This document shows positions 3,022 to 6,439 of a DNA stretch of 18,131 nucleotides, piece by piece. Source of the stretch: Clostridia bacterium (GTDB taxonomy: Bacteria; Bacillota_A; Clostridia; Oscillospirales; CAG-272); the NCBI GenBank assembly GCA_017472105.1, contig JAFUQY010000107.1:1-18131 (forward strand). The letters are read 5' to 3'. The notes beneath the pieces are model-generated. The model was not told where the DNA came from, ran no database searches, and worked only from the letters and a program-made list of their open reading frames with translations. The position numbers and the translations under genes were made by a program. The first letter of the stretch is position 1. Each line of letters opens with the position of its first letter.

Positions 3022-3786
3022 TTATTCGGATGAAAAAAACACCCTCGGACTGCCGGTTTCATCCGTGCCGCAGTAGCGCCGCAGACCGAAGACGTCCTCG
3101 ATCAGTGACGTTTCCAGAAGCTGTGCCGGAGATCCCGCAAAACGCACGGTTCCGCCGTCGAGAAGCACCGCCTGATCCGAGAACCGGAGCGCGTTTTCCA
3201 TGGAATGCATGACGGTGACGACGGTTTTGTTCCGTCTGACGCACAGCTCCCGGAGAAGCGTGAGAAAATGCCCTTCGTGATCCGCGTCCATGAATGCCGT
3301 CGATTCGTCGAGCAGCATGACGGGTGTATCCTGCGCAAGCTGCATGCCGAGATGTGCCCGACGCTGTTCTCCGCCGGAGATCCGGTCGACATAGCAGTGC
3401 CGCAGATCGGTCAGCTCCGCGTCGCGTATGGCATTTTGGGTGGCTTCCCGGTCAGCTTCGGTCATGGATTCGCCGGTATTCCTCCACGGATGCCGACCGA
3501 ACGCGACGAGCTCTTCTACCGTCACATGCGGAGACCGGAGCATCTGAAGCATGAGCGAAATTTTCCGTGCCCTCTCCCGCGGCGTCATTGCGGACAGCTC
3601 ATTCCCGTCGAGCGTCACGGAGCCGGTGTACGGCAGAATCCCGCCGATTGCGGAGAGAAGCGTCGATTTCCCGCATCCGTTCCGACCGATGACGGTGGTA
3701 AACGTTCCGGGAGATGCGGTGAATGCGACGTCGTGCAGGATCACCCTCCTGCGATGGGATATGGTATGGATCCGGATTGTAAGCAT
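3022..3786 (-). CDS. ABC transporter ATP-binding protein, iron-siderophore/heme/cobalamin type
   Basis: 254-residue cytoplasmic ATPase of the FecE/FepC/BtuD type that powers import through the FecCD-like permease encoded upstream. Motifs in order: Walker A GRNGCGKST (34-42), Q-loop Gln81, signature ISGGEQRR (136-143), Walker B VMLLDE (156-161) and H-loop His194. The length is normal for the family. The ATG at 3786 is chosen because AGGAG lies about 8 bases before it; the upstream in-frame codon at 3807 is TTG with no site. In related operons this gene directly follows the permease. Here about 730 bp with a GIY-YIG gene and an inverted repeat lie between, so expression may be reduced or may depend on a local promoter (3816-3843). 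The ligand cannot be read from the ATPase. Confidence 0.93.
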   Translation of the reverse strand: MLTIRIHTISHRRRVILHDVAFTASPGTFTTVIGRNGCGKSTLLSAIGGILPYTGSVTLDGNELSAMTPRERARKISLMLQMLRSPHVTVEELVAFGRHPWRNTGESMTEADREATQNAIRDAELTDLRHCYVDRISGGEQRRAHLGMQLAQDTPVMLLDESTAFMDADHEGHFLTLLRELCVRRNKTVVTVMHSMENALRFSDQAVLLDGGTVRFAGSPAQLLETSLIEDVFGLRRYCGTDETGSPRVFFSSE

Positions 3787-3815
3787 GGCAAAACTCCTGT
3801 ACTCCAAAATTTTCT

Positions 3816-3843
3816 GTAATACTTCCCTCTGTCAGCCTGACAA
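3816..3843 (-). promoter_or_regulatory. Possible local promoter for the displaced ATPase gene
   Basis: On the minus strand, TTGTCA (3843-3838), a 16-bp spacer and TATTAC (3821-3816). The -35 box overlaps a perfect 13-bp dyad TGTCAG-C-CTGACA (3830-3842). It lies between the large inverted repeat and the ATPase start, where a new promoter would be useful. The -10 is a weak match. Confidence 0.35.
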
Positions 3844-3850
3844 ACATCTC

Positions 3851-4165
3851 TGTCATTCAGAGGGCGAGTTATCCGTAAAAATAAAACCCAATATCCTGCC
3901 CGAAGAATCTGCGCATGTCCTGCTGCAATCGCTGTATGTCTGTGGTTATCTTACGTATTCAGCTGAAGGGTACTCACTTTGTTTTCATGTAAAGTCTGCT
4001 GATTCATTATTGGTATCAATCGCATTTTACAGACGTTCGTGAGTAACCTTCACTCGGATAATCAGGAATGCCACAGACATCTGCCGATCTGAACAGGACA
4101 TGCACGGATTCTTCGGGCACGAGATACAGCCGATATTGTTAGCAATTTTCGCCCTCTGAATGACA
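3851..4165. repeat. Large imperfect inverted repeat, 127-bp arms and 61-bp loop
   Basis: This fills most of the gene-free stretch 3787-4208. The left arm (3851-3977) and right arm (4039-4165) are inverted copies aligned without gaps, about two thirds identical by hand count. Identity is in four blocks: 3851-3867 with 4149-4165 (17/17), 3897-3922 with 4094-4119 (24/26), 3936-3945 with 4071-4080 (10/10) and 3965-3977 with 4039-4051 (12/13). The segments between blocks (29, 13 and 19 bases) have equal length on both sides but little identity. Each arm has a GGGC...GCCC pair between CATTCAGAG and CGAAGAATC. From memory, this resembles dispersed repeats of the CATTCTGAG...GAAGAATC kind in many genomes. 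G+C is about 44%. A weak 6-bp hairpin (4168-4191) lies between this repeat and the GIY-YIG stop. Confidence 0.9.
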
Positions 4166-4208
4166 AAATTTCACGTTTAGTCGATTGAAATGTAGAATTA
4201 CTGTATTT

Positions 4209-4517
4209 TTATATTTTCGTTATAGATGATTTATCATCCAAATCAGCCGCCAGATCACGCCATGCTGGATTCATTCCATTCACTAATGCATACTTCTTTT
4301 CGCGTGACAGTCCCTTCAACTCTTTTTCGCGCCTGATAGCAGTCATGACCTGATGTGTTTTTTCAAAATATACCAGCTTGTTCACATGATATCGGCTTGT
4401 GAATCCATCATTCCGTCCGGTTTTATGTTCCAGCACACGGCGTTTTAGGTCATTTGTCACACCAATATAAAGTACGGTATGTTTCCAGTTACTCAAAATA
4501 TATACCCAATACATCAT
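4209..4517 (-). CDS. Small single-domain GIY-YIG endonuclease family protein
   Basis: 102-residue protein of the UPF0213/YhbQ-like GIY-YIG family, a stand-alone nuclease fold. The first strand carries Tyr6 (VYIL), YIG is at 17-19, the likely catalytic Arg is Arg27, a metal-binding Glu is Glu64 or Glu66, and the family ending MNPAWRDL is at 82-89. The domain is complete, so it is probably active on DNA. The tail after residue 92 is short and polar. Its ATG directly follows the permease TGA, and the ribosome binding site (AAAGGGGTGG) is the permease's own last codons, so translation is probably coupled. A second ATG follows at 4514. G+C is about 40%, far below its neighbours, which suggests recent acquisition. 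Its target is unknown; the adjacent inverted repeat is the obvious candidate. Confidence 0.88.
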   Translation of the reverse strand: MMYWVYILSNWKHTVLYIGVTNDLKRRVLEHKTGRNDGFTSRYHVNKLVYFEKTHQVMTAIRREKELKGLSREKKYALVNGMNPAWRDLAADLDDKSSITKI

Positions 4518-5510
4518 TCACCACCCCTTTCGCCGTCGGAGCAGCCACAGGAAGAACGGTGCGCCGAGGAAGGACATCATAATTCCGACGGGGATTTCCG
4601 ACGGTGCGGCAAGAATCCTGCCGGCGAGGTCTGCGGATACGGTGAGAATCCCGCCGAGCAGTGCGGAGACCGCGATCGTGTACCCGGTGTTGTGTCCCGT
4701 CAGCTTCCTTGCCATGTGCGGCACAATCAGTCCGATGAATCCGAGCAGTCCCGCGTAGCTCACGACAGCCGCAGCCGACGCCGATGCGCACAGAATCGCC
4801 GCAAGACGCACCCGCTTCACGTTCACGCCGAGCAGAGATGCACCGCTCTCGCCGAGACACAAGAGATCCAGTTTGCGCGAAAGAATCAGGCTCACCGTCA
4901 GGCACACCGCGATGATGCACGACGGCAGAATGAGCTGTTTTGTCTGCACACCGCGGAATCCGCCGACGGAAAACGCATTGTACGAGGTCAGCACATCCGT
5001 GTCGATCAGCGTGATGCCGGAAATCGCCGCGTTCAGGAGTGCCGTCACCGCAACACCGGCGAGAATCACCGATCCGTGGGATTCCCCTGCGCCCGATGCG
5101 ATGGAAACGATCAGCAAAGTCGCGAGAAATGCGCCTGCGAACGCGGAAAACGGCAGGATCAGATACGACACCGACCCGAACGCCAGCGTCAGAACCACGG
5201 CAAATCCCGCGCCTGCGTTGACGCCGATGATGTTCGGAGCCGCCAGCGGATTGTCCGTCACGCACTGTAAGAGCACGCCGGAAAGAGACAGTCCGACTCC
5301 CGCCGCAATTCCGGCAAGAACCCGCGGAAACCGCACCGACCACAGGATCACCGATTCCGTTTCGTACCCGTCCGCGCGGATGACTGCACAAATAAACTCA
5401 CGCCAGCCGAGCTGTGCACTGCCGAACCGGATTCCCGCCGATGCTGTCAGAATCAGCAGAATCACGAGCAGAGCAAGCCCGACCGGACGCCGGAAAAATT
5501 TAGTTTTCAT
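4518..5510 (-). CDS. ABC transporter permease, FecCD/BtuC family
   Basis: 330-residue multi-pass membrane protein of the FecCD/BtuC family, which forms the channel for import of ferric siderophore, heme or cobalamin. Family blocks are visible: RFPRVLAGIAAG, NPLAAPNIIG and NAGAG in the first half, GLLGFIGLIVPHMAR (coupling and cytoplasmic loop) in the second, and the ending EIPVGIMMSFLGAPFF. The N-terminus has a Lys/Arg patch and then a hydrophobic helix. Its ATG overlaps the last 11 bases of the binding-protein gene (5500-5510), so the two are translationally coupled. The stop abuts the GIY-YIG start codon, and the C-terminus Arg-Arg-Arg-Lys-Gly-Trp looks natural, so the insertion did not damage the gene. 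Confidence 0.95.
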   Translation of the reverse strand: MKTKFFRRPVGLALLVILLILTASAGIRFGSAQLGWREFICAVIRADGYETESVILWSVRFPRVLAGIAAGVGLSLSGVLLQCVTDNPLAAPNIIGVNAGAGFAVVLTLAFGSVSYLILPFSAFAGAFLATLLIVSIASGAGESHGSVILAGVAVTALLNAAISGITLIDTDVLTSYNAFSVGGFRGVQTKQLILPSCIIAVCLTVSLILSRKLDLLCLGESGASLLGVNVKRVRLAAILCASASAAAVVSYAGLLGFIGLIVPHMARKLTGHNTGYTIAVSALLGGILTVSADLAGRILAAPSEIPVGIMMSFLGAPFFLWLLRRRKGW

Positions 5511-6420
5511 ACAGCAGCTCCGTCAGCATCCGGTAGGCGTCCGCCCAGCGATGGTTCGGCTTGAACTGGAACAGTGCCTTCGGCAGATAGTACACCCGTC
5601 CGGATTTCACGGCGTCAAGCGTCTGCCACTCGTGAGAATCAAGCTGAGTATTCATGTATCCGACGGCGGCACTCTCGTCTCCCATCGTCGTGATGAAGAC
5701 GGCGTCCGGATTTTCCGTCATGATTTCCTCCATGCTCAGACCGTCGATGAGCACCGGGGCGTTGTCCGCGATGTTGTATGCGCCCAGCTCCTCAAGCATT
5801 GCCGCCGCGAAGTGCTGATCCGCCGTTTTCGCCTTGGTCGACCGGACAGACGATCCCGCGCGGATGAAGAGAATCCGTTTTTCCGCCTTTTCGCGCACGG
5901 ATGCGAGGACTTCGTCAATCTCCGCCTGAACGGACGTGCCGTATGTCTCGTATGCGTCCGCGTTTCCGGTGATGTCACAGCAGATCTCCAGCATCCGCAG
6001 GTAATCCCCGAACGACTCCACGCGGAAGGACGCGCACGGGATCCCGGCATTGTTCAGAAGCTGTGCCGCATCCGCCTGCGCTTCGATATCCGCCGACGCA
6101 ATGACGAAATCCGGTTCCGCCGCGATCAGGGTTTCGATATTCACCGTCTTCCCTGCCCCTTCATCCGCGAGCGTCACGCCGTCCGGTGCAAATCCGCGCT
6201 CCACGGCTTCTCCGACCGTGATTTCGACATCCCCGCCAGCGAGCGTCCAGATTTCCGCGTACGACGAAAACAGCACCGCGGTCTTCTCCGGCTTTTCCGC
6301 AAGCGAAACCGTCACGCCGCAGTCGTCAGTGAAGGTATAGTATGCGCCGCCGTCCGGTTCAACTTCCGTACAGGAGGTCAAAAAAAGCAGGACAGCGGTC
6401 AGAATTGTCAGAATTTTCAT
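5500..6420 (-). CDS. Periplasmic-binding-protein-like lipoprotein of iron/cobalamin importer
   Basis: 306-residue substrate-binding lipoprotein of the FepB/BtuF/FhuD class, which captures a metal chelate outside the membrane and hands it to the permease. It has a short Lys-containing hydrophobic signal peptide and lipobox LTSC with the lipidated Cys at residue 17. The mature part shows the usual two lobes: an early strand with DDCGVTVSLAEKPEKTAVL, a middle segment EPDFVIAS, and the late LSMEEIMTENPDAVFI. The ATG at 6420 is preferred to the one at 6432 because GGAG lies 6-7 bases before 6420 and nothing usable precedes 6432. It is the first gene of the importer operon, under the promoter at 6464-6492. 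The ligand cannot be decided. A Fur-like iron box was not evident. Confidence 0.92.
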   Translation of the reverse strand: MKILTILTAVLLFLTSCTEVEPDGGAYYTFTDDCGVTVSLAEKPEKTAVLFSSYAEIWTLAGGDVEITVGEAVERGFAPDGVTLADEGAGKTVNIETLIAAEPDFVIASADIEAQADAAQLLNNAGIPCASFRVESFGDYLRMLEICCDITGNADAYETYGTSVQAEIDEVLASVREKAEKRILFIRAGSSVRSTKAKTADQHFAAAMLEELGAYNIADNAPVLIDGLSMEEIMTENPDAVFITTMGDESAAVGYMNTQLDSHEWQTLDAVKSGRVYYLPKALFQFKPNHRWADAYRMLTELLYEN

Positions 6421-6439
6421 GTGTTTCTCCATTAAAAAA

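Follow-up and report, generated by a model that had tools for sequence, protein, structure and literature searches.

A GIY-YIG nuclease gene with C/TGTC-tagged palindromic repeats, a candidate REPtron-like mobile element inserted in an importer operon

Results

A low G+C insert between two importer genes

The window analyzed here is the whole 18,131-nt stretch of contig JAFUQY010000107.1 from a Clostridia bacterium (GCA_017472105.1). On its minus strand lie the genes of one iron importer: a periplasmic-binding protein (5500-6432; PF01497, E 4.7e-28), a FecCD-type permease (4518-5510; PF01032, E 1.8e-84), and an ABC ATPase (3022-3786), whose reading frame is open to 3807 with a probable ATG at 3786. 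Between the ATPase start codon and the permease stop is an insert of 731 bp (3787-4517) with 41% G+C. The original prediction had placed a GIY-YIG gene and an inverted repeat between permease and ATPase, and we found both: a single-domain nuclease gene of 102 aa (4209-4517, minus strand), identified by its open reading frame and Pfam, and a repeat at 3851-4165. The low G+C of the insert was also borne out, with 0.395 in the nuclease gene and 0.441 in the palindrome as compared with 0.58-0.61 in four neighbor genes. Likewise, GC3 was 0.39 in the nuclease gene versus 0.70-0.75 in four other window genes. The nuclease start abuts the permease stop as described, the TGA (4518-4520) immediately adjoining the ATG (4517), and AAAGGGGTGG lies in the permease end just 5' of that ATG. 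A second ATG may be the true start.

We compared this site with related operons in 391 genomes of the class of genome G003, taken as Clostridia. A permease relative at E ≤ 1e-60 was present in 23 genomes, and 20 of these loci were compared, all of them distant (39-53% identity to the window permease). The ATPase directly followed the permease in 19 of the 19 loci with an ATPase match, L099 being the sole locus without one, which agrees with the claim that these two genes are normally adjacent. None of the 20 distant loci had a GIY-YIG match, so nuclease and repeat are not common to this locus in all relatives. At the protein level, the closest relative of the window nuclease was P0002 (81% identity), and the closest permeases were P0121-P0123 (78-90%). 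Searching phage and plasmid records with the insert DNA by blastn gave no match, and Rfam had no match in the window.

The window palindrome is a dimer of REP-like units

Repeat search and folding delimit a palindrome of 315 bp (3851-4165). It had been called a giant inverted repeat, and an inverted repeat of that length is present; it is an imperfect head-to-head dimer of two REP-like units rather than a single perfect palindrome. Unit 1 (3851-3910, plus strand) begins with the tag TGTC (3851-3854), followed by a stem in which ATTC (3855-3858) pairs with GAAT (3905-3908) and GGGC (3862-3865) with GCCC (3898-3901). Unit 2 (4106-4165, minus strand) is inverted and has the same tag and stem, each unit reading TGTC-ATTC-AGA-GGGC...GCCC-GAA-GAAT-C. 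The outer arms form a perfect 17-nt pair (3851-3867 and 4149-4165) and the inner arms an 87-nt pair at 72% (3891-3977 and 4039-4125). As single-stranded DNA, positions 3845-4172 fold at -75.6 kcal/mol versus -34.2 ± 4.2 for 100 shuffles (z = -9.9), and either arm alone folds, under RNA parameters, into a hairpin that leaves TGTC unpaired. A further effect could be reduced ATPase expression, through the 315-nt hairpin that the importer transcript would contain.

The unit nearest the gene begins 44 nt past the gene end and the second closes at 358 nt. Upstream of the nuclease gene, in the permease end, there is no repeat unit; the repeats are on one side only, and this copy is therefore truncated or atypical. 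The best match to a GIY-YIG remnant within the window palindrome had an E-value of 0.099, which we take as noise.

A conserved single-domain nuclease

GIY-YIG is the only domain of the window nuclease (PF01541, E 3.1e-14), for which we recovered 961 relatives at E ≤ 1e-5. Residues Y6, Y17, R27, E64, and N83 were invariant in 42 aligned proteins, and from their mapping to I-TevI we take these to be the catalytic Tyr, Tyr, Arg, Glu, and Asn. Among solved folds, UPF0213 (1zg2, E 7e-5) was nearest to the predicted structure (pLDDT 89.6), with Slx1 structures next (E about 0.01). A nuclease profile matched 1zg2 at E 8e-9, and NCBIfam returned no match. Median dN/dS was 0.084 among the 27 usable of 91 pairs from 14 open Chryseobacterium copies, and 0.20 for a nuclease pair in genome G076, values that show purifying selection on the nuclease gene.

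Tagged hairpins cluster beside the nuclease genes

We used the best 80 of 88 genome loci, picked by nuclease similarity alone. Their record labels include Clostridia, Bacteroidota, Spirochaetota, Patescibacteria, Chloroflexota, Fibrobacterota, Omnitrophota, Proteobacteria, and others. The GTCAT motif was first noticed by eye, after which we counted every 9-mer lying no more than 500 nt from the gene, without restriction to that motif. The 9-mer TGTCATTCC occurred in the near flanks of 24 of the 80 loci versus the far sequence of 9, with six times more bases in the far set; corresponding counts were 23 and 13 for TGTCATCCT, and 19 and 15 for TCATCCTGA. By our main definition, a repeat is a GTCAT tag with a stem of 5 bp or more 3' of it, no farther than 500 nt from the gene. 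Such hairpins were found at 76 of 80 loci, whereas 500 random placements within the same loci (skipping those without room for placement) averaged 15.1 loci and never exceeded 26. Hence, repeats do cluster beside GIY-YIG genes, as the original prediction had proposed to check. No GTCAT hairpin was found in the remaining 4 loci, or in 8 of the 80 under a narrower definition. Density of tagged hairpins was 5.6 per kb at 0-250 nt from the gene and 0.14-0.40 per kb past 1 kb. Among the 64 trinucleotides 5' of near-gene hairpins, GTC was the most enriched (7.5-fold, median 1.4-fold), and those ranked after it resemble shifted readings of the same hairpins. The base before GTCAT was T or C in 196 of 206 near-gene units.

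The order seen most frequently was repeat(+), gene, repeat(-), in which the outer ends carry the tags. Where hairpins were present on both sides, the nearest were + upstream and - downstream in 29 of 47 loci. Under the narrower definition, the 80 loci divided into +/- (29), none/- (12), +/+ (10), +/none (8), none/none (8), -/- (4), -/+ (4), none/+ (3), and -/none (2).

As a control, a search with the Pfam model yielded 23 GIY-YIG loci in 12 genomes, of which 19 were not of the element type. Seventeen of these, with reading frames 182-669 aa long, are probably UvrC and others; the remaining two, L124 and L125, are small. Within about 0.6-0.85 kb on either side, 14 of the 19 had no tagged hairpin and 5 had one or two. 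The element-type loci among the 23 had 7 (L127), 3 (L135), and 8 (L142) tagged hairpins, and none at the truncated locus L126.

We also asked whether the type of repeat follows the nuclease. A tree was built from 76 nucleases, omitting five of 81 that were shorter than 75 aa; it has few columns and many open forks. The trait was the commonest near-gene stem 5-mer, and rows with rare stem types (fewer than three) or no repeat were omitted. Across the resulting 58 rows, stem type changed 22 times on the tree, whereas 1000 shuffles averaged 34.7 changes and never fell below 26. When shuffling within host phyla, 2 of 1000 shuffles were at or below 22 changes. Repeat type thus tracks nuclease clade beyond host phylum.

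Gene-less repeats and their co-occurrence with the gene

Twenty genomes with the gene had 1-8 nuclease matches each (41 total). In the same genomes, TGTCATYCTGAG occurred 0-139 times per genome and was present in 17 of the 20, with 0-2 occurrences of a reversed-pattern control. Repeat-only copies, another proposed check, proved to be many. Genome G001 has 15 regions with dimers alike by eye, 12 of them 118-128 bp and three longer with extra tags, and the element's repeats match 47 places in G076. Among the matches listed, many tags pair as +/- at a spacing of roughly 56-240 bp; in G015, for instance, this holds for 8 of 11 and in G006 for 6 of 8. Such gene-less head-to-head dimers would be non-autonomous derivatives of the proposed element.

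At least 20 tags were present in 18 of the 391 genomes of G003's class, with up to 264 in one genome, and the nuclease gene was present in 15 of 391 (E ≤ 1e-15). The gene occurred in 9 of the 18 tag-rich genomes versus 6 of the 373 others (Fisher p 4e-10), with both cut-offs set after seeing the data. The E-value cut-off drops four weaker matches, in G051, G075, G083, and G317 (E 4e-12 to 4e-11). None of these genomes has a tag, and including them gives 9 of 18 versus 10 of 373. Pfam and similarity searches found no element-type nuclease gene in the other nine repeat-rich genomes; eight of these have other GIY-YIG proteins and G383 has none. The tag-rich G131 has a small GIY-YIG gene with no tagged hairpins beside it. 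Assembly gaps at repeats or gene loss are possible reasons for the missing gene.

Occupied, empty, and decayed sites

Relatives of the nuclease found by tblastn included 35 plasmid and 11 phage records, from which 12 loci (11 plasmid, 1 phage) were analyzed. GTCAT hairpins lay beside the gene in eight, from records labeled Azospirillum lipoferum, Sinorhizobium meliloti, Neisseria gonorrhoeae, Rhizobium CIAT894, Shinella HZN7, Spirosoma, Photobacterium, and Planktothrix. The N. aromaticivorans and Sphingobium loci had terminal repeats, perfect or nearly so, that combine a GTC tag with a different stem, R. tumorigenes had a CTC-tagged dimer, and the one phage locus had no tagged hairpin. In N. 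gonorrhoeae (L150), the GIY-YIG gene sits inside an array of dRS3-type CGTC-ATTCCCGC hairpins. On a Planktothrix agardhii plasmid (L157, 2492-2776), the repeat-flanked GIY-YIG gene has an MmeI-like restriction enzyme gene on one side and drmA, encoding the DISARM helicase, on the other.

Sites without the element, which the original prediction had suggested seeking, exist in the permease relatives described above, in Azospirillum, in Chryseobacterium, and at the site of a gene-less dimer in A. lipoferum. The A. lipoferum repeat-gene-repeat unit lies between sufB and sufC. Three Azospirillum relatives with 94-95% flank identity lack this unit and are 492-531 bp shorter, and A. oryzae and A. ramasamyi have no tagged repeat at the site. 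Shinella PSBB067 has its own repeat-gene-repeat unit at the same junction. Overall, the sufB/sufC junction (L148, L163, and L164) holds independent GIY-YIG insertions in Azospirillum and Shinella and a DUF559 gene with palindromes in Sphingomonas, which suggests intergenic insertion hot spots. The gene-less dimer of A. lipoferum is missing in three relatives, although the sequence they fail to match extends past the dimer itself.

A record labeled S. meliloti Ak57 has a full element beside a second unit that retains both repeats and, by eye, roughly the last 25 codons. At this site, three Sinorhizobium records (95%) are shorter by 696 bp, and the one that was read, K101, holds a short repeat remnant. 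No exact insertion junction was obtained from the A. lipoferum or Sinorhizobium comparisons. For W01 the Sinorhizobium junction scan took in seven 20-kb stretches and for W02 it took in 13, all chosen by exact CGTCATCCTCGG matches. The five W01 matches outside the nuclease locus look coding and form no hairpin, and one CTC-tagged dimer was seen by eye in W02 and not in W01. In Sphingobium, the element lies between fnrL and a response-regulator gene in 7 of 11 records that span this interval, the other four being 348-355 bp shorter. Of three of these four that were read, two retain a single solo palindrome and the third carries a CTCCC palindrome. The latter, TomTYG72 (L305), has its CTCCC palindrome at the fnrL site in place of the GIY-YIG element or solo palindrome.

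The L071 site was followed through the genus Chryseobacterium, where an uninterrupted, nearly full-length match was present in at least 28 of 173 genomes (14 of these copies open and 14 broken). Of twenty further genomes, one had a copy with an internal deletion, eight had half copies, six had 17-nt scars, two had inserts of about 1 kb, and three had no trace of the element; L263-L265 show no tagged repeat. The 17-nt scars are the two halves of the outer palindrome. We infer the direction of change at this site, which is old and displays decay rather than fresh insertion. In the genus of L055 (titled Flavobacterium), 194 of 199 genomes matched and, among the matches listed, those besides G014 covered the left flank only. 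Within G076, the one genome of its genus, two nuclease copies are 90.6% identical over a shared 436-bp repeat-gene-repeat unit, and their flanks are unrelated aside from short repeat matches.

No target-site duplication was found in 29 loci: the mean adjacent direct repeat was 1.66 nt versus 1.57 nt when shuffled, with 164 of 500 shuffles as high. Absent target duplications fit single-strand or break-repair insertion.

Discussion

We consider it probable, at roughly 0.7, that the window insert represents a copy, in part atypical or decayed, of a REPtron-like mobile element composed of a GIY-YIG nuclease gene and C/TGTC-tagged palindromic repeats. This reading draws on the association across phyla, the tag and its orientation, the gene-less and internally deleted copies, the element-free sites, the purifying selection on the gene, and the repeat-bounded unit shared between G076 copies. 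The nuclease would be the mobilizer of the repeats. We propose that it could recognize the tag and stem hairpin in single-stranded DNA during replication or in cruciform DNA; Slx1, a nuclease of branched DNA, is among its closest relatives of solved structure. The enzyme might then cut at or near the tag, cutting would drive copying or transfer of the repeat-gene unit, and host repair would complete the insertion. With somewhat less confidence, we lean toward viewing the single-domain GIY-YIG nuclease as a new mechanistic class of autonomous element, acting on GTC-tagged hairpins and spreading itself and its gene-less dimers across many bacterial phyla, and as the missing mobilizer of CGTC/TGTC REPs, including dRS3.

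The main result against the REPtron-like reading is that nine repeat-rich genomes are without the gene. Also counting against it are the 4 of 80 loci without the hairpin, the lack of target-site duplications and of an exact junction, the missing upstream repeat of the window copy, the old and decaying Chryseobacterium site, and the phage relative with no tagged hairpin. Having half of the repeat-rich genomes without it is easier to accommodate if the nuclease is a homing-type parasite that cuts a gene-less dimer and is copied in by recombination, which would keep gene and repeats together, with something else spreading the repeats. GIY-YIG enzymes include homing endonucleases, and such a parasite also predicts both the 436-bp unit shared by the G076 copies and the match between repeat type and protein clade. 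We nevertheless regard homing as unlikely: no other linked enzyme was found (Y1_Tnp alone was sought, with no match in 11 of 20 genomes), the sites of some relatives have no tagged repeat (A. oryzae, A. ramasamyi, and L263-L265), and gene remnants inside dimers show that dimers derive from full elements. Appreciably less probable still is a nuclease that serves the host by processing hairpins or cruciforms and is kept beside the repeats it trims, which would spread through replication errors. The Slx1-like fold among its nearest structures, the purifying selection, and the solo-palindrome scars, which fit trimming or slippage, are all consistent with host service. Opposing it are the patchy presence of the gene (15 of 391 genomes at E ≤ 1e-15), the 14 of 28 Chryseobacterium copies that are broken, and the 1-8 matches per genome across 20 genomes.

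Mobilization of the repeats by RAYT/HUH transposases, with the GIY-YIG gene as a passenger, is favored by Y1_Tnp matches in 9 of the 20 gene-bearing genomes. Short GTCATCCC hairpins occur about 0.1-0.2 kb downstream at two of the 23 Y1 loci, which belong to G012, and one G014 Y1 locus has a tagged hairpin about 1.2 kb off. However, none of the tagged hairpins at the Y1 loci (13 of the 23 have a GTCAT hairpin of some kind within 1.5 kb, mostly with long loops) is of the ATYCTGAG type, and there is no Y1_Tnp match in G001, G002, or G008, which have 67, 81, and 31 tags, respectively. Di Nocera 2013 (PMC3733652) describes CGTC repeats as not associated with transposase genes. With no Y1_Tnp match in 11 of 20 gene-bearing genomes, we judge RAYT unlikely as the driver, and the passenger scenario is very improbable. 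As for chance neighbors, namely an ordinary GIY-YIG gene next to an unrelated palindrome, one locus by itself could not exclude coincidence. Chance is refuted by the association count (76 of 80 loci), and the control GIY-YIG loci, 14 of 19 without a tagged hairpin nearby and 5 of 19 with one or two, leave it a negligible probability.

The preferred reading, in which nuclease and repeats form one mobile element, offers a concrete enzyme candidate for repeats reported without a transposase, linked to them in many phyla. If true, REP-type dispersal has also evolved with an enzyme unrelated to HUH transposases, and GIY-YIG nucleases can be counted among the enzyme classes capable of moving DNA. 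The same reading may account for genes between operon genes that carry the annotation "GIY-YIG nuclease family protein". The GIY-YIG/REP pair may be one case of a wider rule joining small nucleases with REPs, because DUF559 nucleases appear bracketed by a second palindrome family. Inverted CTCCC..GGGAG palindromes bracket DUF559 genes in four of five loci (L164 1143-1573, L310 419-955, L311 463-1050, and L313 521-968), and the fifth (L312) has no bracketing palindromes. These are possibly a second family of nuclease-plus-REP elements. Downstream of two Y1_Tnp genes of G012 (L103 and L119), at about 0.1-0.2 kb, lie short GTC-ATCCC..GGGAT hairpins in pairs; here a GTC-tagged repeat may have become associated with an HUH enzyme independently.

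Comparison with known systems

Other GIY-YIG proteins provide the first point of reference. UPF0213, Slx1, and UvrC-type proteins share the fold and conserved residues, but the 19 other GIY-YIG loci mostly are without flanking tagged hairpins. Homing endonucleases of this superfamily share the catalytic domain and, possibly, selfish spread. They differ in that here no intron or intein was seen, the nuclease has no added DNA-binding domain, and insertion sites are varied rather than one allelic site: in the window and in the annotated loci from the plasmid and phage records the nuclease gene lies between genes, and the flanks of the G076 copies are unrelated. GIY-YIG genes in rRNA insertions of CPR bacteria seem to fall outside homing, with most insertions at stem-loops, according to PMC11270868; these insertions may be the same element in rRNA genes. 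MITEs are similarly short, gene-less, inverted-repeat derivatives of a larger element, but no target-site duplication was found in the 29 loci and the enzyme gene is not a known transposase.

The original comparison with RAYT/REPIN pairs is apt because the window arms are tagged, head-to-head REP-like units. REPtrons, comprising a RAYT with GTAG-tagged REPs and REPINs, likewise have a small enzyme gene flanked by tagged hairpins, dispersed gene-less head-to-head dimers, repeat types matched to enzyme clade, and low enzyme copy number. Flanking tagged hairpins and gene-less dimers are found for the family described here, and the repeats in the window are one-sided. In contrast to the HUH transposase and GTAG tag of REPtrons, we find a GIY-YIG nuclease and a GTC tag: GIY-YIG is the sole Pfam domain in place of the expected HUH/Y1 enzyme, and 11 of 20 genomes have no Y1_Tnp match.

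The closest match for the repeats themselves is with CGTC-tagged REPs, which Di Nocera 2013 (PMC3733652) reports in five phyla, apparently without a dedicated transposase. Among the matches listed in open-access literature, no title or abstract opening linked a GIY-YIG nuclease with REPs. PMC3733652 names A. lipoferum and S. meliloti as CGTC hosts and equates Neisseria CGTC-1 with dRS3, and records of these species are ones in which we observed the repeats beside the nuclease. These REPs (including dRS3 and RPE-4/6) share with our repeats the CGTC/TGTC tag, the AT stem start, and head-to-head dimers. In the window, an unpaired TGTC precedes ATTC..GAAT, in line with an unpaired CGTC, TGTC, or CCTC tag and AT stem, and the dimer is formed by units at 3851(+) and 4165(-). 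Relative to the 8-9 bp stems and 4-5 nt loops given there, the window arms are unlike in having a 4-bp stem, interior mismatches, a second stem, and a longer loop, whereas hairpins at L067, L148, and L150 have 8-bp stems and 4-nt loops. The statement that no system of exactly this form had been described therefore holds in part: the repeat superfamily was already known (PMC3733652), and its pairing with a GIY-YIG enzyme is new.
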